From NCBI RefSeq assembly GCF_023721715.1, contig NZ_JAMDLG010000001.1, forward strand, positions 2,271,784 to 2,335,783: 64,000 bases of DNA, in the 5' to 3' direction. The translations under genes were made by a program, and so were the position numbers. The notes under the pieces were generated by a model. It was not told the DNA's origin and made no database searches. It saw nothing but the letters and a program-made list of their open reading frames with translations. This document shows positions 19,894 through 32,829 of the stretch, piece by piece. Within the stretch, counting starts at the first letter, position 1, and each line of letters begins with the position of its first letter. The DNA is from Parasegetibacter sp. NRK P23 (GTDB lineage Bacteria; Bacteroidota; Bacteroidia; Chitinophagales; Chitinophagaceae).

Positions 19894-20541
19894 TTATTGC
19901 TGCCTGACCAGCAACCCCAGGTTGTAAGCGGCTTTCAGGAGCGCGGGTGTATTGTGTACATTCATTTTTTGCAGCATATTCTTCCTGTGCGTATCAATCG
20001 TGTAAATACTCAGGCAAAGTTTCTCCGCGATCTCCTGGCTGGAAAGTCCTTTATCGAGTAAGGATAGAATTTCTTTTTCCCGCCTGGTCAGCATGGGAAT
20101 CTGCTGCGGATTGATGTCCAGTTCCCGGAGTTGCTGGAGTATTTTATCGTTGGCCGCTTTACTCAGGTAAACGTCTCCGTCCAGCACTTTGTTGATGGCC
20201 GTAACCAGTTCCGTTTTTTCCATATCCTTGAGCAGGTAACCATTCGCTCCTTTGCGGATCATCTGGGAAATGATGCCCGCTTCGTTCACAGAAGTAAGGC
20301 AGATGATTTTTACAGAAGGATACAACCGCCTGATCTGTTCGCAGAGTTGAAGTCCATCGGTATCGGGCAGGTTAATGTCCAGCAATACAAGATCACATTC
20401 GGGGTGTTCCCCCAATATATTTAAGGCCTGCCTGCCCGTGCGGGCGGCGGCAATCACCTCCAGGTAGCACTCATCCTTCAGCATGGTGGCCACACCATCC
20501 ACCACCAGCGGGTGATCATCTATAATCATCAGTTTTACCAT
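19894..20541 (-). CDS. NarL/FixJ-type (LuxR HTH) response regulator
   Basis: I start at the ATG complementary to 20539-20541 (MVKLMIIDDHP), giving 215 residues. The receiver domain carries Asp8/Asp9, phosphoacceptor Asp55 (LVLLDINLPDTDG), the conserved Thr in ICLTSVNE and Lys in LLKDMEKTE. The C-terminal LuxR-type HTH spans about 150-210 (LTRREKEILSLLDKGLSSQEIAEKL, then SIYTIDTHRKNMLQKM). It is the output partner of the TPR-containing kinase encoded 25 bases upstream on the same strand. Confidence 0.95.
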   Translation of the reverse strand: MVKLMIIDDHPLVVDGVATMLKDECYLEVIAAARTGRQALNILGEHPECDLVLLDINLPDTDGLQLCEQIRRLYPSVKIICLTSVNEAGIISQMIRKGANGYLLKDMEKTELVTAINKVLDGDVYLSKAANDKILQQLRELDINPQQIPMLTRREKEILSLLDKGLSSQEIAEKLCLSIYTIDTHRKNMLQKMNVHNTPALLKAAYNLGLLVRQQ

Positions 20542-20566
20542 AAATTCAGCGATGGTCAAATGTACG

Positions 20567-22603
20567 TTATCGGTTCAAGGATTGCCCTTCGTCCAGTAAA
20601 ATATCGATCAATACAGTGGTCCCAACATTGGGCACGGAATCGATCGACAATTTCCCGTTCAGGTATTCCACACGGCTTTTTACGGTTGACAAGCCCATAC
20701 TCTGCGCCTCGCCGGTACCAGTGGTATCAAACCCTTTGCCATTGTCTTCCACCACGAGGCTGAGCCTGTCCCCTTCCCTGTTCAGTTGCACCAGCACACT
20801 GGTGGCGGCCGCGTGTTTGATAATGTTGTTCATCAGTTCCTGCACAATACGGTACAACATCACTTCTGTGGTGCGGTCGAGACGGTTTTCCAATCCGTAA
20901 GATTGAAAGTTAACGGATAACATTTTGCCTGCGCTGATGTTGTTGCTCATATCCCGGAGCGCTTCGGGAAGCCCTACTTTCAGCAATACTTCGGGCATCA
21001 TATTGTGCGCCACCCGTCTCAGTTCTTCAGAGGCGGCACCGATCAGTTCCCTGGTTTTTTTATACAGCGGATTGCCCGTTAAGCCGGGCACCTCTTCCTG
21101 TAGTGTACTGTAGTGCATCCGCACGGTGGAGAATAGTCCGCCAAGCCCATCATGCAGGTCCTTCGCGATGCGAGTGCGCTCCGCTTCCTGCCCGTTCACC
21201 ATCGATTGGAGCGAGATCACCTGTTGCTGCCCCTCCAGGAATTTGATTTCATCTTCTTTCAGTTTTCTATCTTTTTCGGCCAGTATTCTTCGTTGCCTGC
21301 CCGTTCTGTAAATCAGCAATACCAAAAGCAACAACAACAGGGCCACGCCCAAGGATACCAGCAGCCAGCGGTTCTTCTCCAGCACCTCCAGTTTCCGCAA
21401 CGCATTCTCTTTTTCCAGGGAAGAAATATGGGTCATGCGTTTTTCGTTCTGGTATTTGGCTTCCAGGAAATTCAGTTCCTTCAGTTTTTCATCTGTTTCC
21501 AGACTATCGCTCAGGCGGATGGCTTTTTCACGGTAATCCAGGGCTTGCTGAAACTGCTTTCTTCCCTTAAAAATATCGGCCAGGTAACCAGCCGCTCTCC
21601 GGGCATTAAACGTAAGTCCGGTGGCGACGCCGGCCTGGTATACTTCTTCGAACAACGGAATGGCTTTGGGAATCATGCCCGCCTCATAATAACTCGTAGC
21701 CAGGTTTTGCATGGCGGAAAGGCGGCTGCCTTCATTGTTCATTTCTGAAGCCGTTTTCAATGATTGTTCATGCGCGGCGATCGCTTTATCGTATGCCCTG
21801 AGGTAATCGCGGAAGAAATTCCCTTCCAGCTTATAATATTCATAACGGGTATCCAATGCCTGGTAAGGACTGAATTCTGCGGTTGCGATCAGGGTTTTCA
21901 TTTCTTTCAGTACGCGGTCTATACCAGCACTGTCTTTACGCACACTATAGAGTGAATGCAATTCGTACAAATAATCGAAATGATAAATCGGCTTCGCCTT
22001 TTTCACCTGGGGCTCGGCGCTCGCCAGGTATTCCGCGGCTTTGTCGAAAAGTTTCAACTGCCGGTATTCACTCGCAATGTTGCAATACACAATCACCAGG
22101 TTGTTAGGATCAGGCGTTTGCAGTTCCGCGAGTTCAAGGGATTTCAGGCGGTGCGATAAAGCCGTAGCGTAATCACCATTCCGGTTGTAGATACCCCCGA
22201 GGTTATTATGGGCCATCATGTGGGCACGGAGCCTGCGGAGACTGTCTTTCGAAGGTGATGGCTCAGTAAGAATAGCTTCATAAGTCCCGATCGCTTCCAG
22301 CCAGTTGTTCATCTTCACCGCGTAGTTGCCTTTTGCGATCAGCGACTGGCATATACCCGTATAATATTTCTCCTTCCGCGCAATATCCAGCGCCTGCCCA
22401 AGCAGGGAAAGGCCCGCCGTATCCTGCTTGTGCGTGAGCAGGTAGCCCCCCAGCCGGTTCAGGGCGTCCACCCGGGTGGTATCGTCCTTCGGTTTCCGGA
22501 TGATCTGCCAAAGGCTGTCTTCGTTCACTTTCTGTGCAAGAAGAACACCCGAAACCAGCACCAGTAGCAGAACAATACATATCTTTTTATACAAGAGCCG
22601 CAT
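20567..22603 (-). CDS. TPR-repeat sensor histidine kinase (HisKA_3)
   Basis: The start complementary to 22601-22603 gives about 678 residues. A signal sequence (about 1-23) is followed by a periplasmic array of tetratricopeptide repeats up to about residue 395 (for example AHNNLGGIYNRNGDYATALSHRLKSLELA and AMQNLATSYYEAGMIPKAIPLFEEVY). A coiled stretch, one transmembrane helix (LLVSLGVALLLLLLVLLIY) and a HisKA_3 domain follow, with phosphoacceptor His in AKDLHDGLGGLFSTVR and a HATPase domain (ELMNNIIKHAAAT, EDNGKGFD, GLSTVKSRVEYLNG). This architecture is common in Bacteroidota. It pairs with the NarL-type regulator downstream. The ligand is unknown. Confidence 0.93.
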   Translation of the reverse strand: MRLLYKKICIVLLLVLVSGVLLAQKVNEDSLWQIIRKPKDDTTRVDALNRLGGYLLTHKQDTAGLSLLGQALDIARKEKYYTGICQSLIAKGNYAVKMNNWLEAIGTYEAILTEPSPSKDSLRRLRAHMMAHNNLGGIYNRNGDYATALSHRLKSLELAELQTPDPNNLVIVYCNIASEYRQLKLFDKAAEYLASAEPQVKKAKPIYHFDYLYELHSLYSVRKDSAGIDRVLKEMKTLIATAEFSPYQALDTRYEYYKLEGNFFRDYLRAYDKAIAAHEQSLKTASEMNNEGSRLSAMQNLATSYYEAGMIPKAIPLFEEVYQAGVATGLTFNARRAAGYLADIFKGRKQFQQALDYREKAIRLSDSLETDEKLKELNFLEAKYQNEKRMTHISSLEKENALRKLEVLEKNRWLLVSLGVALLLLLLVLLIYRTGRQRRILAEKDRKLKEDEIKFLEGQQQVISLQSMVNGQEAERTRIAKDLHDGLGGLFSTVRMHYSTLQEEVPGLTGNPLYKKTRELIGAASEELRRVAHNMMPEVLLKVGLPEALRDMSNNISAGKMLSVNFQSYGLENRLDRTTEVMLYRIVQELMNNIIKHAAATSVLVQLNREGDRLSLVVEDNGKGFDTTGTGEAQSMGLSTVKSRVEYLNGKLSIDSVPNVGTTVLIDILLDEGQSLNR

Positions 22604-22802
22604 ACAATAAAGCATTAAATATTACGAATCATTGAACCTTGCACGATTCAGGCTTGAAAACTACTACAATCGCCGGTGACCCCAATACCAAATATCAGGT
22701 ATTTATCCCGCTGATTTTTCGCCAGGAACCGGTATATACTGAAGCCCCTTCACAACGGACATTTACAGGGAACAAAACCAACAGGAGTACATCCCCGCAA
22801 AT

Positions 22803-24029
22803 ATGCCTTTCATGCGACAACTATTCTTATTACCGCTACTGCTTCTTCCTTTCGCCGGATTCGCACAGGAAGAGGAAAGCAAGTCCGGACGATTATCACC
22901 GAAAGAATTCGCTATTCCTCCTTCTCCCGTATTCGACCTGATGGGCGTAACGCCTTCCCAGATCAACCGCACTTCTGATATCAAGGATTTTAAGGTAGAC
23001 TGGTCGTTCAAATCATGGCGCCTCAATCCAAATATCGCCATTCAATCGCAACCGGTCTGGGAATTGTTGTACCGGAGAAAAGACCTGAAAAAATACCAGC
23101 GCTCCGATTATTTCATGAGAAGACTGGCCTCACTCGATGTATCATTGGGAACGGTTCAGAACGAAGAAAGCGACCGGAGAATAGGCTTCGCTGGAAAAAT
23201 GAACATCTTAAAAGGCCGCGACCCTTTGATGGAGAAGGACCTTTATGAAGAAATTTCCATTCGTTTCCAGGAAGAGCAAACCACGCTGGAAGCACAATTA
23301 AAAGCCTTGCAGGAAAAGCTGGACACCAGTATCAGTATCATTGAAAGATCGGCCATCCGCACCGAAATCAGCAATACGAACGCTGAACTGCAAACCCTGA
23401 ACAGCCGGCGGAACACGGAAATAAATGAACGGGCCGCATTGTTCGTAGCGGAACATTGGAACGCCGCCTCGCTGGACGTTGCTTTTGGCCGCGTATACAC
23501 TTACCAGAGCGATAGCGCGGGATCATTGAACAAATTAAGACTGAACCGGAATACCGGATGGGGCATGTGGGTGAATGGCGGTGTTCCGTTGGGAAAACGA
23601 TGGCTGCTCTCCGGCCTGATCCGCACTACCTGGTATGAAGAAGAACTGAACTTCCTGTTAAGAGATAAAAATACCGGGGAAGAAACCCAACAATTGGCCG
23701 TAGCCGAAAACAAACTTTATTCCGCGGGTATCAACCTCCGTTATGGCGGACCACTCTATAGCTTTTTCGTGGAATTCCTCTATGAAAAGAAAGCGCTCAA
23801 AACACCCATAGAAGCACTGAGCGAAGCGTTTACCGCTCCGGCAGATGTGGAGATTGTTGAATCCTCCGTGAAGTGGACCACCGTTCATCCCAACGCCTTG
23901 AGCCTGGGTGGCGACTGGCGCATCAGCAGGAACGTGATCATCAACTACGGGATGCGCTGGATACTGGATAAAAACGGGAAGTCGCAGGCATTTATCCCCG
24001 TGGCGGGTATTTCCTGCATGATGCGGTAA
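22803..24029 (+). CDS. Exported predicted outer-membrane protein with central coiled coil
   Basis: The 408-residue product has a signal peptide (about 1-21, ending FAQ); a second ATG three codons later is an alternative start. Residues about 140-215 are charged, heptad-like and Glu/Gln-rich (EEQTTLEAQLKALQEKLDT and INERAALFVAEHW), predicting a coiled coil. The C-terminal half alternates aromatic and polar residues like beta-barrel strands (RNTGWGMWVNGGVPLGKRW, LYSAGINLRYGGPLYSFFVEF, NVIINYGMRW). I do not recognise a named family. It is the first of four exported proteins encoded in one direction with a lipase; the spacing to that gene is 26 bases, so they are probably co-transcribed. Confidence 0.75.
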   Translation: MPFMRQLFLLPLLLLPFAGFAQEEESKSGRLSPKEFAIPPSPVFDLMGVTPSQINRTSDIKDFKVDWSFKSWRLNPNIAIQSQPVWELLYRRKDLKKYQRSDYFMRRLASLDVSLGTVQNEESDRRIGFAGKMNILKGRDPLMEKDLYEEISIRFQEEQTTLEAQLKALQEKLDTSISIIERSAIRTEISNTNAELQTLNSRRNTEINERAALFVAEHWNAASLDVAFGRVYTYQSDSAGSLNKLRLNRNTGWGMWVNGGVPLGKRWLLSGLIRTTWYEEELNFLLRDKNTGEETQQLAVAENKLYSAGINLRYGGPLYSFFVEFLYEKKALKTPIEALSEAFTAPADVEIVESSVKWTTVHPNALSLGGDWRISRNVIINYGMRWILDKNGKSQAFIPVAGISCMMR

Positions 24030-24055: not shown

Positions 24056-25501
24056 ATGAAACGAGTATTAATGTTCATGCTGCTTTCATTCAGCATTTGC
24101 TTCAGCGCAAAAACACAGGTCCGGTTCTGTACCGACCCGCGTTTTGCCTTCGATATTCCTGAAAAGGAAAATAACTGTATGCAGTATTTCAATTACAACG
24201 AAACCGGCATGACGCCCGGGAACGCATTCATTCTCGCCAAGATGAGTGAACTGATTTACCCGGAAAGACTGTATTACCAAACGCGCTACCTTCAGAATGG
24301 CCAGCGTCCGGTCACTTCCATTTCCAGTACCGATTGGATCGAACAGAACAGCACGGTAAACAACAGTAATATTGAAGCCGTGTTTGCCGGGCGGTTCGCG
24401 CATTACTTCTTTGATGAACGGCAGCGACCGAAACGCCTAGCGCTCCTGGCCGTTCCGGTAAAGATGGTGCCCGAAGCGCAGAAGGTAACCAAATTACCTG
24501 CCAACATTAACCTCAGGCTGGATTCTTCGAAAAGCACCGTGCCTCCGAAAGCGAGTCAGCCGGTTGCCCGGAACTTCGAAGAAGATTCCATTGCCTGGGT
24601 GAACGAAAACACGGCGCAATTCAAATTTATCCGCCAGCGCAACGGGGTGAAGATACTGGGCATTGATGCGGGCTTCGATCCTGAACTCATGATGATAGAT
24701 GCGCCAAAAGCGAACTTCATCGTTTTCCGCGGCACCGATGCATATAAAGAAATCGGCAACAGAGGGGAATGGATCGGAACCGACTTTCTCGCCACGTTCA
24801 AGGATGGAACCGGTTCGCTGTCCGGCACAAAATTGCACAGTGGTTTTTACGAAAGTTACCTGCTCATCAGGCCCGAACTGATCGGCTTCCTGAATGCCAA
24901 CGGCGGGAAATCGAAAAAGATATGGCTCACCGGCCACAGCCTGGGTTCCGCCATGGCCGTGATCGCAGGGGTTGACCTGAAAGCCGCCGGATACAATGTA
25001 CAGTCCGTATACGGTTTCTCCGCACCAAGAGTACTGGGCAACGATGCCTTTAAAAACAAAGGAAATAGTTTATTGCCCAACCGCATCCACCGTTTTGAAT
25101 ACTATCTGGACCCGGTAAGTGTAGTAGGCGTTCCTTTCTACCATGCGCCGGGCAAACGCCACTGGTTCGACCATGTGGAATACGGCGATCTTCAGAAATA
25201 CACTACCGACGACGACCGCTACCTTTCCCTTAACCCCTGCGAATTCAACAAATGTCCGGGCGATAGCCGAAGCGACAACACCGTTCGTATCCTGAAAGCG
25301 AGAAAAAGCGGGGTAATGACCGATTTCATGGCTGAACCCACCAAACTGATGGGCCATAACCACAACCCGCAGTGGATGCTGCGGGGTATTTACAAACTGT
25401 TATCCGCAACCGAAAAAGCCCGTCTTCCTTCTATTGACGACAGCTTCCCCTTCCTCTATGCCAAAGGTCCAACCGATACCCCCATTCCCGGCACCCGCTA
25501 A
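24056..25501 (+). CDS. Exported class-3 lipase family protein
   Basis: The 481-residue protein starts with a signal peptide (about 1-20). A lipase_3 alpha/beta-hydrolase core occupies roughly 190-365: a strand and oxyanion segment FIVFRGTD, then the nucleophile elbow WLTGHSLGSAM with Ser295, then FSAPRVLGN, a likely catalytic Asp in YYLDPVSVV, and His residues in FYHAPGKRHWFDH. Class-3 lipases hydrolyse acylglycerols or phospholipids. The N-terminal 180 residues are not recognised, and Cys residues near the ends may form disulfides in the periplasm or outside. It sits in a run with three other exported proteins, including one that resembles a lipid-transfer protein. Confidence 0.85.
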   Translation: MKRVLMFMLLSFSICFSAKTQVRFCTDPRFAFDIPEKENNCMQYFNYNETGMTPGNAFILAKMSELIYPERLYYQTRYLQNGQRPVTSISSTDWIEQNSTVNNSNIEAVFAGRFAHYFFDERQRPKRLALLAVPVKMVPEAQKVTKLPANINLRLDSSKSTVPPKASQPVARNFEEDSIAWVNENTAQFKFIRQRNGVKILGIDAGFDPELMMIDAPKANFIVFRGTDAYKEIGNRGEWIGTDFLATFKDGTGSLSGTKLHSGFYESYLLIRPELIGFLNANGGKSKKIWLTGHSLGSAMAVIAGVDLKAAGYNVQSVYGFSAPRVLGNDAFKNKGNSLLPNRIHRFEYYLDPVSVVGVPFYHAPGKRHWFDHVEYGDLQKYTTDDDRYLSLNPCEFNKCPGDSRSDNTVRILKARKSGVMTDFMAEPTKLMGHNHNPQWMLRGIYKLLSATEKARLPSIDDSFPFLYAKGPTDTPIPGTR

Positions 25502-25528: not shown

Positions 25529-26998
25529 ATGAAAAAAGTATTCCTCCTCGCGGGCACCTCGTTCCTGCTCGCAAACAGTTCGATGGCCCAGAACAGGATC
25601 GTCATCGAAAACAGGCAGCCGGTCAGTTTCAGCGGCAAAACACCGGTCGCTTTTAAACGATTCGACCTTGCAGAAGCCAAAGTAAACGGGCAGCAAATGA
25701 AGCCTACCGACAAAATTAAAACCATCAGCGGAAAAGAAATCACGGTGGAAGAATACCTGGCGCGCGTCAATAAAATTGAACAGGAAATCAGCAAGCGGGG
25801 CTATTCCCTCCGGAAATATGAGATCGGTAAAACATCCCTCAAGTTCAAACCGGTCAACATTTCGAATACGGAAATCCTGCGCAAGAACCAGCTCATCAAT
25901 ACCGGGGTGAAAGCGCCTTTGGGCCGTCAGCAACGGGTAACCATGTTGTTTCCGCAAAAAAAGAGCACGGCAACGGCTTCGGCTACCACGCTCAACAAGA
26001 CTGCCAACAACGGATTGATTACACAGAAAAAACCGGTATCGAATGTAAACCTGGAAATCAAAAGAGAAGAAAAAAGAATTGAAGAAGAATACTCCATCGC
26101 GCAACTGCTGAAACCACTTACCGACCAGATACAGGAATCGATGGGCAACGATGGCGCTAACTTCAGCCTATCAAACGCCTCGCTCAAAGTTTCCAGTTAC
26201 GCCGTGAAGCCACTGGGCGGAAACGTGGAAAACGGCATGGGCACCACCGGCTCAGAATACAAAGTAGCGGTCAACTTCAACGCCAATGTCAGGGGGTCCT
26301 TCGGGCTGCCTTTCACCATCACTATTCCCATGGCCACCATGAACGGAGAGTTCACCGCCAAGGCCAACAACAACCAGGCCCATGAAAGAAAAGTGGTGGT
26401 AAACCTGATGGGCAGATCTTTTTTCAACAGAACCACCAATATTTCCAGCGCCACCTTTTCTGAAAGTGATGAGGAAGAATTGCAATTGAGTGAAATTATG
26501 CCCACCCGCACCTTCTCTTCCCTCAACTTTATGGACTGGCTTCCTTCCATCGGCATCAATACCACTTTCTCGCTGGGTGGATCTGTAGGATGCAGCTACG
26601 ACGTACAGATGGACAGAAACGGAGTTTCCGCACACATCGGCCCCACCTATGGCACGACCCTCCGCGTAGCCGCCTCTTATGGCATGGAAGATGTGCTGGA
26701 AGGCGGCATAGAAGGCATCATCACTTTAGTGAAAGGAGGACTGGGCTTCGGCGGCACTGCCGGTCTTGCGAGAGAAGAAGGTGTTTGGCGGCTGAAGAAC
26801 ATCTCTTCCGTAGAAGCCACACTGGAAGCGCTGAAAGGAGAGATCAATCTTTTTGTAAGATACCCTGACCTTTCCAACTGGAGTTGCTTCGCGCCCTGCA
26901 TTAAAAAAGAAACCATCCCCATTTATGAAACACCTGCCGCTTTCCGCCTGAATGGCACTTTGCTGGAATCCGACAAAGGCTTTAACCTGAACTGGTAA
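25529..26998 (+). CDS. Exported beta-rich protein, function unknown
   Basis: This 489-residue protein has a signal peptide (about 1-21, ending SMAQ). Residues about 50-210 are basic and helix-prone, with a charged EIKREEKRIEEEY stretch. From about 215 it becomes Gly- and beta-rich: a segment of alternating hydrophobic strands (KVAVNFNANVRGSFGLPFTI), then DWLPSIGINTTFSLGGSVG and GGIEGIITLVKGGLGFGGTAG, and a C-terminal EATLEALKGEINLFVRYP with a Trp/Cys cluster (LSNWSCFAPC). I do not recognise the family. It lies 27 bases after the lipase gene and four bases before the vitellogenin-like gene, so it probably belongs to the same unit. Confidence 0.75.
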   Translation: MKKVFLLAGTSFLLANSSMAQNRIVIENRQPVSFSGKTPVAFKRFDLAEAKVNGQQMKPTDKIKTISGKEITVEEYLARVNKIEQEISKRGYSLRKYEIGKTSLKFKPVNISNTEILRKNQLINTGVKAPLGRQQRVTMLFPQKKSTATASATTLNKTANNGLITQKKPVSNVNLEIKREEKRIEEEYSIAQLLKPLTDQIQESMGNDGANFSLSNASLKVSSYAVKPLGGNVENGMGTTGSEYKVAVNFNANVRGSFGLPFTITIPMATMNGEFTAKANNNQAHERKVVVNLMGRSFFNRTTNISSATFSESDEEELQLSEIMPTRTFSSLNFMDWLPSIGINTTFSLGGSVGCSYDVQMDRNGVSAHIGPTYGTTLRVAASYGMEDVLEGGIEGIITLVKGGLGFGGTAGLAREEGVWRLKNISSVEATLEALKGEINLFVRYPDLSNWSCFAPCIKKETIPIYETPAAFRLNGTLLESDKGFNLNW

Positions 26999-27002
26999 TT
27001 TT

Positions 27003-28814
27003 ATGACGACAGCGTATTTCCCGACACGGCTTCTTTCCTTCACCAAAACGGCAACCGTTTTTATTTACTGTCCCCTCATGGTCCTGCAAGGATATGCGCA
27101 GGAAAGAAAGCTGGTGTCCCGAGCGCCGGAAGCCTGGGAATACGCTGTCGTTTTTAACAGTGGTGTGCAAACAAACCTTTCCTTTTTTAATGCAGCGATC
27201 GCCGACACGCAACTGAATGCCGGAATGGAAGGACTGATAAATATCTCAGTACAAAAGGATAAGAATGGTTCGCATGTTTGCTGCCGGTTTACTTCCATCA
27301 GCAAACTCAATCTTCCCTTACCGGAATCTGTGAAAGAAGCAGTTAACAACAGCCTACTTGCAGGATTTTGTTTCACACGTCATTCAAATGGGTTGATCGA
27401 TAGCATCTTTTTTCCCGGAACACCAGGAGATGCGGCTGAACACCTCGTTGTCCAGTTTATTGAAGGATGGCAGTATTTCAATCCCGGAACTTCCAGGCAT
27501 AAACGGACAAACGAAATATATCTTTCAGATGGAAAGGTAAACGCGGTTTTTAACCACAACGGCCGCACCCTTGTAATGGATTCTCTGAATGCCGTGTATG
27601 AAAAATCCAGCCGGCATCCCGATCTCATTCCCCAACATACTGTTTACCACAGCCACCTTCGTTTTACGTTTGAAAAAGCAGCGGCGTTTCCTTCGGAAGT
27701 AAACGGCTTCATCAACCGGCAATCTTTCATCAGTCATCACCTGGCCAGTGCAATGAAGAACAGCTATGCTTACAGCAGGAAACAAATTTTAAAAAATAAT
27801 GCGGGCCACAGCTCCGATTCATACGCTTATAAACGACCATTTTATTACCCGCAACGGGTGCAGTTGCTGGAGCAGAAAAGAATACTGGCGCGCGCGGAAA
27901 ATATACGGTCCGCAGACCTGGAAGCGGCATTGGCCACCATTGAAGACAGCACCACCGAACTCCGGCAACAGCATATACTGGACGACCTGAAAGCCTTTCT
28001 GCTGGCGGAAAAGCCTCTATCGGAACAACTGGAAAACATTTTTTTGGAAACCAACCCTCGGACAGCCCGTTTCAAACTGATCAGGGCCGCATTGATTGGC
28101 GCCGCTACAACAGAGGCCCAGGCTATAATGGTAAAAATGATCAAAAAATACCGGCATGAGGAGGTGAACCTGCTTCGGTATATCGTGCCGTCGGTTGGTC
28201 TTATCCAAACACCTGGATATGCCTTACAATACGAACTGGAAGACATTGTAACGGACCCGAAAACACCTTCCGCCCGCAAATCATCCACCTTTCTTTCGTT
28301 GGGCAATATGGCCGGCGCGTTGAGTACAACCGATCGTTCACGCGCAGATTCACTGGTAGCACGATTGATCCACCTGCTAAAACCTATCAACGATCCCATG
28401 CTGTTGCTTTCCGTGCTGGGCAACGCCGGAACAAACAACGCTTTACCCGCCATTCTTCCCTACCTGAAAGACACTACTGAAACCATCAGTGGTATGGCCT
28501 GGTATGCCCTTCGGTTTGTTGAACATGAAAAGGTGGATCGTTTATACCTTGATGCAATTTCAAATGGCGCGGCATTTAACGAACCTGTACTTAGCACTAT
28601 ATTGGAAGCGATGTTCTATCGCCACTTCAGGCCGGAGGCGTTGCCACATCTTGAAAAAATACTACAAACAGGTTCAGAGAAATTACAGCTTCAGTGCCTG
28701 CAACTCCTTTGCCATTATTCTTACCACTATCCTTCTTTGCTGGAGTTGATCGGGCAAATCGCGGTTTCACATCCAAATGAGAAAGTCCGGGCCGCGGCAG
28801 CCGCCTTTCATTAG
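27003..28814 (+). CDS. Exported protein resembling the N-terminal module of large lipid-transfer proteins (vitellogenin/apoB/MTP-like)
   Basis: The 603-residue product has a plausible signal sequence ending near residue 32 (GYAQ). Residues about 40-180 are beta-rich and follow the course of a vitellogenin N-terminal barrel: YAVVFNSGVQTNLS, GLINISVQKD, CFTRHSNGLIDSIFF, and EHLVVQFIEGWQYF where these proteins have 'NIxRGILSLLQ'. Residues about 290-600 form a HEAT-like helical array: FKLIRAALIGAATTEAQAIMV, RKSSTFLSLGNMAGAL, and LLSVLGNAGTNNALPAILPYL followed by AWYALRF, matching the 'ALGNAGxxxxIPxLxxxL...ALR' pattern of lipovitellin helices. Family knowledge: this module binds lipid and assembles lipoproteins in animals. 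The assignment is by eye only; a generic HEAT-repeat protein is the main alternative. It is the last of four exported proteins encoded with a lipase. Confidence 0.7.
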   Translation: MTTAYFPTRLLSFTKTATVFIYCPLMVLQGYAQERKLVSRAPEAWEYAVVFNSGVQTNLSFFNAAIADTQLNAGMEGLINISVQKDKNGSHVCCRFTSISKLNLPLPESVKEAVNNSLLAGFCFTRHSNGLIDSIFFPGTPGDAAEHLVVQFIEGWQYFNPGTSRHKRTNEIYLSDGKVNAVFNHNGRTLVMDSLNAVYEKSSRHPDLIPQHTVYHSHLRFTFEKAAAFPSEVNGFINRQSFISHHLASAMKNSYAYSRKQILKNNAGHSSDSYAYKRPFYYPQRVQLLEQKRILARAENIRSADLEAALATIEDSTTELRQQHILDDLKAFLLAEKPLSEQLENIFLETNPRTARFKLIRAALIGAATTEAQAIMVKMIKKYRHEEVNLLRYIVPSVGLIQTPGYALQYELEDIVTDPKTPSARKSSTFLSLGNMAGALSTTDRSRADSLVARLIHLLKPINDPMLLLSVLGNAGTNNALPAILPYLKDTTETISGMAWYALRFVEHEKVDRLYLDAISNGAAFNEPVLSTILEAMFYRHFRPEALPHLEKILQTGSEKLQLQCLQLLCHYSYHYPSLLELIGQIAVSHPNEKVRAAAAAFH

Positions 28815-30912: not shown

Positions 30913-32829
30913 TTACAATGCCTTTACCCTGCCTGAGCGCATATTGCACTTGTTCATCAACTGTATCTCCCACTGGAAATCCGGGTATTGCTGCTGAAAA
31001 CCCTCCGCAACGGTTTTACCCGAAACACATAATCCATACCTCATGGAAACGCGTAGAACACCCTGGTTAACGGTTCCTGAAATGAGTTTTACATTATAGC
31101 TGTTGTGTCCTATCGACCAATCTGCACCAGGACTCTTAAAATAGAGCCTAACCGGATAACAGGTAGTGCTTGCATCGCATAACGCGGAATAAGACCCGTC
31201 AATCAGAATTCCCGGACCGTCGGCAGTGAACGGTACCAGAAAGGAAAGGGTTCCGGCAGTGCCATCGGAACAGGCAAGTGTGATATTGCCGATAACGGGT
31301 GCATGTACAATCGCGGGATCGCATTCCACCGATAACTTAAAATTCAGTTTGGCCACCTGTTCGCCTTTGTAAAGAATCGTTACATGAGTGGATTGATCGG
31401 TCTTCTCATTGGTGGACAACTTCAAACTAAAACCATCATCACCGGGGACCAACTGGTGGTTCACGAGACTGTTGCCCACCTCTCCGATGGTTACATCGCT
31501 GTAATGAATGTACAGTTGTCTGTTGTCTTTATTCACCAGTTTGAAATCCCGCGCCACATTGTTAAAAACGATGAAAGGCGTGGACAGAACGGGTGCGCCG
31601 TTCACTTCAACCACCTTCGGTTCCATGTAGGAAAGCGACAACGAATGCTCCAGCGGCTGCTGTCCTTCTCCCCCCACCAGTGTGCAGCGCGATTTCAGGC
31701 TTGAATAACTTTTATAGTTGGTGATCGTGTAGGGGTCAATCTGAAAAACGAGCAAGCCGTTTGCCGGAACAGAAGCTTTTGCGGTTTTATAAACGATGTT
31801 ACCGGAGGCGGACATCAGTTCAAAGTCGGCAAAAACAGGCTTTTTCGTAAAAGGAAGTTTCGTATCCGCATCGTTAACAACATAAGTGAACTTTGCGGTG
31901 ATATCGGTTACTTCATCATAATTCATATCCGATGCGGCGGGCACCAGCGCGAGTTCCAGTGAAGGTTCCGCTTTCAGTTTACGCAGTTGCTCTTCCAGGC
32001 TTTTCAGCAATCCGGACAATGCCGCGGATTCCCATTTGAGCCCTGACAATTTTCCGGTAACGGCTTTTAATACGGCGGAGAGTTTTGCCCTTGCATTTTC
32101 GAGCAGTTGTATCTTTTCCAGTTTGGGCTTATAGGCATCGAGAGATTTGATGGCATCCAGCGCTTCGGTGAACGCGTTCTTAATAGTTGAAAGCGCCGGA
32201 TAGCTGTCCCATGCGAGTCCGCCGCAGGCGTGGTATTGCAGGTGATTGTCGATGGTTTTGTCCAGGTCTTCCGCAGGCTGCGGCTGCGCGCAATTCCAGG
32301 GATCCGTTCCCTGTTGCTGGCGGAAAGCTGAATAGCCGGCGGCTTTCTCCCCATCATTAAAATAAGCGCTTTTCAACACCTCTGGTTCTCCCCCGCCTGT
32401 TTCGTCCAATACAGCGATCTCAAAGTTGTTGTTACCGAAAGCCCTTTCTTCCAATACCAGTCCATCGGATACACCGCCCGTTGTAGTGTAATAACGACTG
32501 CTTCCCGTAGCCGGGTTGATGTGGCATACATACGCATGCTGTCCGTTGTTGAAAGTGAGCACCGTTGCGGAAATAAAGGCCACGCGCCCCTGCGCGTCGG
32601 TACTGGCATAAGCCGCAAGGGTATCGTTACCGAACACCAGCTTCATGGCGAGTTGTGCTTCCTGACCGGGCAACAGGTCCGTTTCAAAATAAATATTTCC
32701 CAATCCGGGAACTTTTGCCGCATTGTATGCAGCATCGGCACTACGCTTTTCTTCAGGCGTAGGCGTGGCATCCTTTTTTCCACAATTTAAAAATGGAACC
32801 AGCAGCAATAGTAATATTACCTTCTTCAT
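30913..32829 (-). CDS. Large predicted lipoprotein, function unknown
   Basis: This 638-residue product has a lipoprotein signal with Cys16 (VPFLNC) followed by a Lys/Thr/Pro-rich linker. Residues about 40-190 look like beta-sandwich repeats (ATVLTFNNGQHAYVC); about 225-300 is a charged helical, probably coiled-coil region (KNAFTEALDAIKSLDAYKPKLEKIQLLEN, SLEEQLRKLKAEP); the C-terminal half is again beta-rich with several Cys residues (SVECDP, LACSDG, LCDASTTCYPVRLYF, YGLCVSG). I recognise no family. The anchor and layout suggest a surface or periplasmic scaffold. It is separated from the downstream phosphodiesterase gene by a long hairpin, so the two may not be one operon. Confidence 0.75.
   Translation of the reverse strand: MKKVILLLLLVPFLNCGKKDATPTPEEKRSADAAYNAAKVPGLGNIYFETDLLPGQEAQLAMKLVFGNDTLAAYASTDAQGRVAFISATVLTFNNGQHAYVCHINPATGSSRYYTTTGGVSDGLVLEERAFGNNNFEIAVLDETGGGEPEVLKSAYFNDGEKAAGYSAFRQQQGTDPWNCAQPQPAEDLDKTIDNHLQYHACGGLAWDSYPALSTIKNAFTEALDAIKSLDAYKPKLEKIQLLENARAKLSAVLKAVTGKLSGLKWESAALSGLLKSLEEQLRKLKAEPSLELALVPAASDMNYDEVTDITAKFTYVVNDADTKLPFTKKPVFADFELMSASGNIVYKTAKASVPANGLLVFQIDPYTITNYKSYSSLKSRCTLVGGEGQQPLEHSLSLSYMEPKVVEVNGAPVLSTPFIVFNNVARDFKLVNKDNRQLYIHYSDVTIGEVGNSLVNHQLVPGDDGFSLKLSTNEKTDQSTHVTILYKGEQVAKLNFKLSVECDPAIVHAPVIGNITLACSDGTAGTLSFLVPFTADGPGILIDGSYSALCDASTTCYPVRLYFKSPGADWSIGHNSYNVKLISGTVNQGVLRVSMRYGLCVSGKTVAEGFQQQYPDFQWEIQLMNKCNMRSGRVKAL

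Follow-up and report, generated by a model that had tools for sequence, protein, structure and literature searches.

Genes at the locus

The window, that is the whole stretch of 64,000 nucleotides that was analysed, contains a string of four same-strand genes separated by gaps of 26, 27 and 4 bases. The last gene of the string, hereafter the module, is the subject of this study. The genes discussed here are:

19894-20559, minus strand: LuxR-type response regulator, adjoining the histidine kinase
20567-22615, minus strand: TPR histidine kinase (Pfam), in divergent orientation, common to the window and the loci L038 and L039
22803-24029, plus strand: 408-aa protein, perhaps an outer-membrane protein (a guess from the sequence), with no Pfam family above the cut-off
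24056-25501, plus strand: class-3 lipase (Lipase_3, Pfam), with a GHSLG motif recognised by eye
25529-26998, plus strand: partner, 489 aa, 4 bases upstream of the module, with a start that by eye resembles a signal peptide
27003-28814, plus strand: module protein, 603 aa, an intact reading frame with an ATG start, probable homologue of the Vitellogenin_N / LLT module

The string is headed by a protein of 406-415 aa in the window (22803-24029) as well as at L038 (6410-7657) and L039 (4743-5963). The latter two loci belong to two other genera of the same family, and their copies share 73 and 68% identity with that of the window, whereas the modules there are just 45 and 16% identical. The first-pass annotation had placed the module beside a secreted lipase, and a lipase gene is indeed part of the string in the window. 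Pfam identified a lipase at two of eight loci, the window and L038, while none was seen in the ORF lists of the other six. The lipase was dropped as a defining part of the system because it was seen at two loci only, and the constant neighbour is instead the partner gene at 25529-26998. The lipase encoded at 24056-25501 also gave a weak match to the NCBIfam family XopAP (23 bits, cut-off 400), which probably reflects a shared lipase core. Downstream of the module, the minus strand encodes a 638-aa protein (30913-32829) for which no Pfam family was found above the cut-off.

All five segments quoted in the first-pass annotation (NGLIDSIFF, EHLVVQFIEGWQYF, RKSSTFLSLGNMAGAL, LLSVLGNAGTNNALPAILPYL and AWYALRF) are present in the intact 603-aa protein. 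The signal-peptide-like start recognised by eye suggests that the protein is probably exported. Its parts are:

27003-27098, plus strand: signal-peptide-like N-terminus, approximately aa 1-32, by eye
27108-27872, plus strand: N-terminal domain, approximately aa 36-290, putative counterpart of the LLT beta-barrel as judged from family-level matches to the lipovitellin barrel
27366-27485, plus strand: barrel motif FCFTRHSNGLIDSIFF...EHLVVQFIEGWQYFNP, aa 122-161, inside the stretch aligned to lipovitellin 76-156 by the family profile
27873-28811, plus strand: helical array, approximately aa 291-603, probably homologous to the LLT helical domain
28404-28466, plus strand: LLSVLGNAGTNNALPAILPYL motif of the helical array, aa 468-488

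Relatives of the module protein and their likeness to the LLT module

Animals are the best-known source of the barrel-plus-helix module found in vitellogenin, MTP and apoB, on which yolk formation and blood lipoproteins are based. Profile searches found eight members of the family of the window protein, itself included, in eight genomes of one bacterial class. The window protein, L035 (genome G1465) and L036 (G023) come from one family and L026 (G1190) from the same order, while L003 (G170), L016 (G772), L017 (G768) and L027 (G1354) belong to the same class; G170 shares its genus with G772 and G768. All eight chains have lengths of 550-614 aa. L035 is 45% identical to the window protein and the remaining six are 16-19% identical. 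The genome sets searched (395, 395, 149, 348, 346, 98 and 70 genomes) overlapped and were queried with differing profiles, and their counts are not prevalence figures. A search with the single window protein in 39 genomes returned its own genome only and missed G023, which was later found by the six-member profile. Among the 12 genomes listed for the genus g68, three had a true member, and a scan of named genomes with 102 pattern matches confirmed only two loci, those of Maribacter luteus and Maribacter polysaccharolyticus. Plasmids gave no match to the window, L027 or L026 protein at E<=1e-3.

The Pfam cut-off for Vitellogenin_N (24 bits) was passed by seven of the eight members, namely by L035 (29.7), L016 (36.7), L017 (42.0), L026 (43.7), L003 (46.7), L027 (55.5) and the window protein (24.5), and three HEAT-repeat proteins pass it as well. 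L036 gave no Pfam match and was weak in the six-member profile search (E 1.7e-6); its inclusion among the members rests on its immediate upstream neighbour, a gene homologous to the partner. HEAT_2 was just above its cut-off in L016 (29.1 bits) and L035 (29.8 bits), with one stretch each. In L003, L016, L017 and L027 a lipobox-like GC was recognised by eye after the hydrophobic start.

Searching 395 genomes of the phylum with Vitellogenin_N returned ten genomes at E<=1e-3, two of which hold true members (G000, the window genome, and G170). Several candidates were rejected in the course of the searches. L005, L007, L008 (by Pfam) and L009 (by eye) are HEAT-repeat proteins. Inspection by eye identified L004 as peptidase-like with HEAT repeats, L006 and L010 as cyclophilin-like with HEAT repeats, and L011 as a coiled-coil protein. 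The false positives of later profiles, likewise judged by eye, were L014 (peptidase-like), L018 (TPR-like) as well as L015 and L019 (cytochrome/TPR-like). Since L005, L007 and L008 exceed the Vitellogenin_N cut-off, automatic 'vitellogenin' labels in bacteria may often mislead.

The relation of the family to the LLT module became visible with profiles. When a profile of six members was compared with the PDB, lipovitellin (1LSH) appeared in the fourth row with E 8.3e-7, below three designed repeat proteins. Its best piece was the barrel, in which profile positions 115-197 were aligned to chain positions 76-156 (i-E 1.8e-4); a second, helical piece at 455-508 was weak (6.9 bits) and in the correct order. 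Profiles of the N-terminus only were made to remove the confusion by HEAT repeats. With the N-termini of the six members the lipovitellin barrel was the best PDB match (E 0.0015), followed by sestrin at 0.48. With the N-termini of five relatives, a set without the window protein and without HEAT repeats, the 1LSH barrel was the sole PDB match at E<=1 (E 0.003), the diversity of these five sequences being limited by two proteins that are 74% identical over their whole length. The N-termini alone gave no match to Vitellogenin_N in any of the eight members. In the complete proteins, the alignments of L003 (116-533 to profile 76-541) and L027 (114-520 to profile 75-526) extend well into the barrel part of this model, while the best stretches of other members begin later in it. 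Searched singly against the PDB, L026 found only two rows at E<=1, both MTP (E 0.046 and 0.048), by a match built from weak ordered pieces (barrel 4.9 bits, helix 8.3 bits), and L027 found no LLTP (best E 0.6).

A profile of all eight members matched MTP at 309-529 with E 1.4e-4, below 19 other rows that were nearly all designed repeat proteins; lipovitellin was missing from its 45 rows at E<=0.1. PMC10907164 places the N-terminal barrel of MTP at 18-297 and the start of the C-sheet at 604, hence the matched stretch covers most of the central helical domain. A control profile built from generic HEAT proteins had neither MTP nor lipovitellin among the best 60 of its 83 PDB rows. Collectively, these comparisons make distant homology probable between the bacterial module and the N-terminal barrel and helical superhelix of vitellogenin, MTP and apoB. 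The vitellogenin/apoB/MTP layout proposed in the first-pass annotation is thus supported at the level of the family, by the lipovitellin match for the barrel and the MTP match for the helical part, while the barrel of the window protein rests on its relatives.

The window protein and its predicted fold

For the window protein itself, the comparison with Vitellogenin_N (PF01347) proposed in the first-pass annotation gave a score just above the cut-off (24.5 against 24 bits). The match covers only residues 340-494, which lie in the helical part, and does not set the protein apart from HEAT proteins. Plain HEAT proteins of the same phylum reached 48.0 (L005), 40.1 (L008) and 36.5 bits (L007) and thus outscore the window protein on this model, hence its Pfam match alone proves nothing. 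HEAT_2 was found near the C-terminus as one stretch of 27.3 bits, under the cut-off of 27.7, compared with 175-218 bits and seven stretches each in the controls L005, L007 and L008. Judged by the criterion of the first-pass annotation, for which a confident match to nothing but generic HEAT repeats would speak against the proposal, the case of the window protein taken by itself would be undecided. At E<=1 the window protein showed no Pfam match to DUF1081 or VWD. As a single query against the PDB it gave chance-level matches only (best E 0.43) and no LLTP. In BLASTP it matched L003 over 359-511 with E 6e-10, a helical similarity beyond chance.

The N-terminus of the window protein gave no Pfam family match and was compared with the putative barrel of its relatives by means of profiles. 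The N-termini of the window protein and L035 together were aligned by hhalign to the five distant N-termini with a score of 25.8 (probability 4.4, E 0.0093); 200 column shuffles reached at most 24.1, with a mean of 13.8 and an SD of 2.6. The window N-terminus alone gave a weak hhalign result against the same five (probability 2.4, E 0.02), and its match with the profile of the relatives was equalled by 63 of 2000 shuffles. When this profile was run over 79 ORFs of the window, the module protein ranked fourth; the three ORFs above it, the best of which is the frame holding the partner (4.3 bits), were taken as noise. Over the whole genome the profile did not find the window protein at E<=10. 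Hence, a barrel is supported at the family level, and we infer it for the window protein from its relatives.

Two AlphaFold models with different first sequences, each calculated from a three-sequence alignment, agree that the helical half folds and that the chain is helical to its end, and in both the barrel part has a pLDDT of about 20-40. In the model of the window protein an all-helical array is predicted from about residue 290 to 603 with a pLDDT of mostly 60-90, decreasing to just 41-57 over approximately residues 471-530, the stretch holding LGNAG. Before residue 290 the pLDDT is 21-36, with predicted strands at 79-86, 89-96, 122-126 and 132-136 and a helix at 143-159. The structural check that had been suggested therefore recovered the predicted helical array of residues 290-603 and yielded no barrel suitable for superposition. 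In a structural comparison of the helical model, MTP came fourth by Z (13.5) with an rmsd of 7.8 over 314 residues, among helical-repeat proteins, the model range 235-595 being superposed onto MTP 154-613. This rank is compatible with an LLT relationship and is no proof of it, because repeat proteins can reach such a level by their common arrangement. Foldseek listed engineered or designed armadillo proteins on top and MTP as 47th among the best 50 listed. Lipovitellin was absent among the matches listed for the window model in both comparisons.

The partner gene and a possible two-gene lipid-handling system

A homologue of the partner is located directly upstream of the module on the same strand at all eight loci; its product has 478-579 aa and begins in a signal-like manner. 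The distance from the partner stop to the module start is 4 bases in the window, 1 base at L038 and at L039, 6 bases each at L023, L024 and L029, 24 at L012 and 28 at L028. The partners fall into two groups, the window's three and the other five, which hhalign connects with E 6E-17 over 401 columns, a value reached by none of 100 shuffles. Among 149 genomes searched with both proteins, the partner (E<=1e-4) occurred in exactly the three genomes with a true module. The pairwise identities of modules and partners correlate with r = 0.976 over 28 non-independent pairs, for which shared descent alone suffices as explanation. Neither the PDB (best E 0.28) nor Pfam (best E 0.081) yielded a significant match to the partner, hence there is no tie between it and the sheets of LLTP. 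Beta-type amphipathic stretches were above the level of shuffles in all eight partners, with modest z values of 1.3 to 3.3, and helical amphipathic stretches were not (z -1.6 to 1.3).

Comparison with known systems defines what the bacterial chain has and what it lacks. According to PMC10907164, MTP has a C-sheet at 604-717 and an A-sheet at 722-886 and pairs with PDI, whereas the bacterial neighbour is a protein without known family. By length, all eight bacterial chains end about where these lipid-binding sheets begin and are without the C- and A-sheets of a complete LLTP; they were therefore filed as module homologues and not as complete LLTPs. Hence, the proposal of the first-pass annotation that the window protein carries lipid does not follow, since the sheets that form the lipid cavity of MTP are not part of its chain. 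The likeness to the large subunit of MTP (6i7s, 8eoj) lies in the helical domain matched by the eight-member profile, and both would act together with a second protein. With lipovitellin/vitellogenin (PF01347, 1LSH) the family shares the barrel stretch and the weak helical piece in order, but the bacterial proteins differ by the missing C-terminal sheets and by the separate partner gene. PMC1783640 treats the LLT / Vitellogenin_N module as a marker of the animal LLTP superfamily, including apoB and apolipophorin II/I, and also lists a crustacean clotting protein. ApoB and apolipophorin II/I thus have the module in common with the bacterial family, whereas the window protein is without their DUF1081 and VWD domains as far as Pfam matches at E<=1 can tell. 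HEAT / PBS-lyase proteins resemble the window protein in the sub-threshold HEAT_2 match near its C-terminus, but the bacterial members have no long, strong HEAT array and possess an N-terminal domain and a constant partner gene. Among the literature matches listed, none concerned a bacterial form of the LLT module, most subscription journals lying outside the search.

The reading that we put forward as the best overall, with its chances evenly balanced, is that of a bacterial LLT-module homologue that provides the docking half of a lipid-handling system made up of two genes. As the chain ends before the lipid sheets and the partner is constant, the partner is the natural candidate to be the missing half or a client. 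Somewhat more tentatively, the two proteins might divide lipid handling between them. The module would then be the docking and chaperone half, to which the partner binds either within the periplasm or on the outer membrane. The partner, with its mild enrichment in beta-amphipathic stretches, would hold or receive lipid, and the module would load or protect it outside the inner membrane.

The main rival accepts a true homologue of the LLT module but assigns it to protein assembly only, as a periplasmic chaperone or outer-membrane anchor of the partner without lipid cargo. This is an appreciable possibility, though on balance unlikely. The missing lipid-cavity sheets and the constant and close partner gene would fit it, as would the sighting of a lipase at only two of eight loci and the lipobox-like GC of four members, which is expected of an anchored assembly factor. 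Lipid handling is favoured by the lipase within the same gene string at two loci and by the animal homologues of the module, which serve mostly lipid transport.

Two further explanations would remove the relationship to the LLT module or change its history. If the protein were an ordinary exported scaffold of HEAT repeats that carries an unrelated domain at its N-terminus, its vitellogenin likeness could stem from a general similarity of helical repeats. In line with this, the Vitellogenin_N match of the window protein is restricted to the helical part, generic HEAT proteins pass the same cut-off, the N-terminus of the window protein does not reach significance by itself, and designed HEAT or armadillo proteins lead the six- and eight-member profile lists and the Foldseek list. 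However, a single HEAT_2 stretch under the cut-off is far from the arrays of the controls, the HEAT-free N-terminal profile singles out the lipovitellin barrel, and the best rows of the HEAT control profile contained neither MTP nor lipovitellin; we therefore consider such a scaffold improbable. Recent acquisition of the gene from an animal could account for the patchy occurrence, as in g68, but is hardly credible. It would predict a clearly animal-like sequence, while the single-protein PDB searches with the window protein, L026 and L027 gave no or weak matches; moreover, identity between the window protein and all but one of the seven other members is only 16-19%, and the divergence of the module is paralleled by that of the partner gene.

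The proposed two-gene lipid-handling system points to an undescribed protein pair in one bacterial class, with a possible role in lipid handling beyond the inner membrane. If bacteria have a homologue accompanied by a constant partner, it would supply an outgroup for the vitellogenin/MTP/apoB family and make the origin of this family testable. One speculative, rather doubtful scenario is that bacteria possess a large lipid transfer machine of two genes, with the barrel-plus-helix module and the lipid-holding part as separate exported proteins; such a machine may stand near the origin of the animal family, in which these parts would have been fused later.

Regulation of the pair might involve the sensor kinases found nearby, which perhaps control both genes. 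A sensor kinase is encoded upstream of the pair within approximately 7 kb at all eight loci, which may be due to chance in genomes rich in such kinases; six loci were assigned by Pfam, L023 and L040 by reading of the sequence. At L023, L024 and L029, the interval that separates the sensor kinase from the pair encodes proteins that appear leucine-rich-repeat-like by eye.
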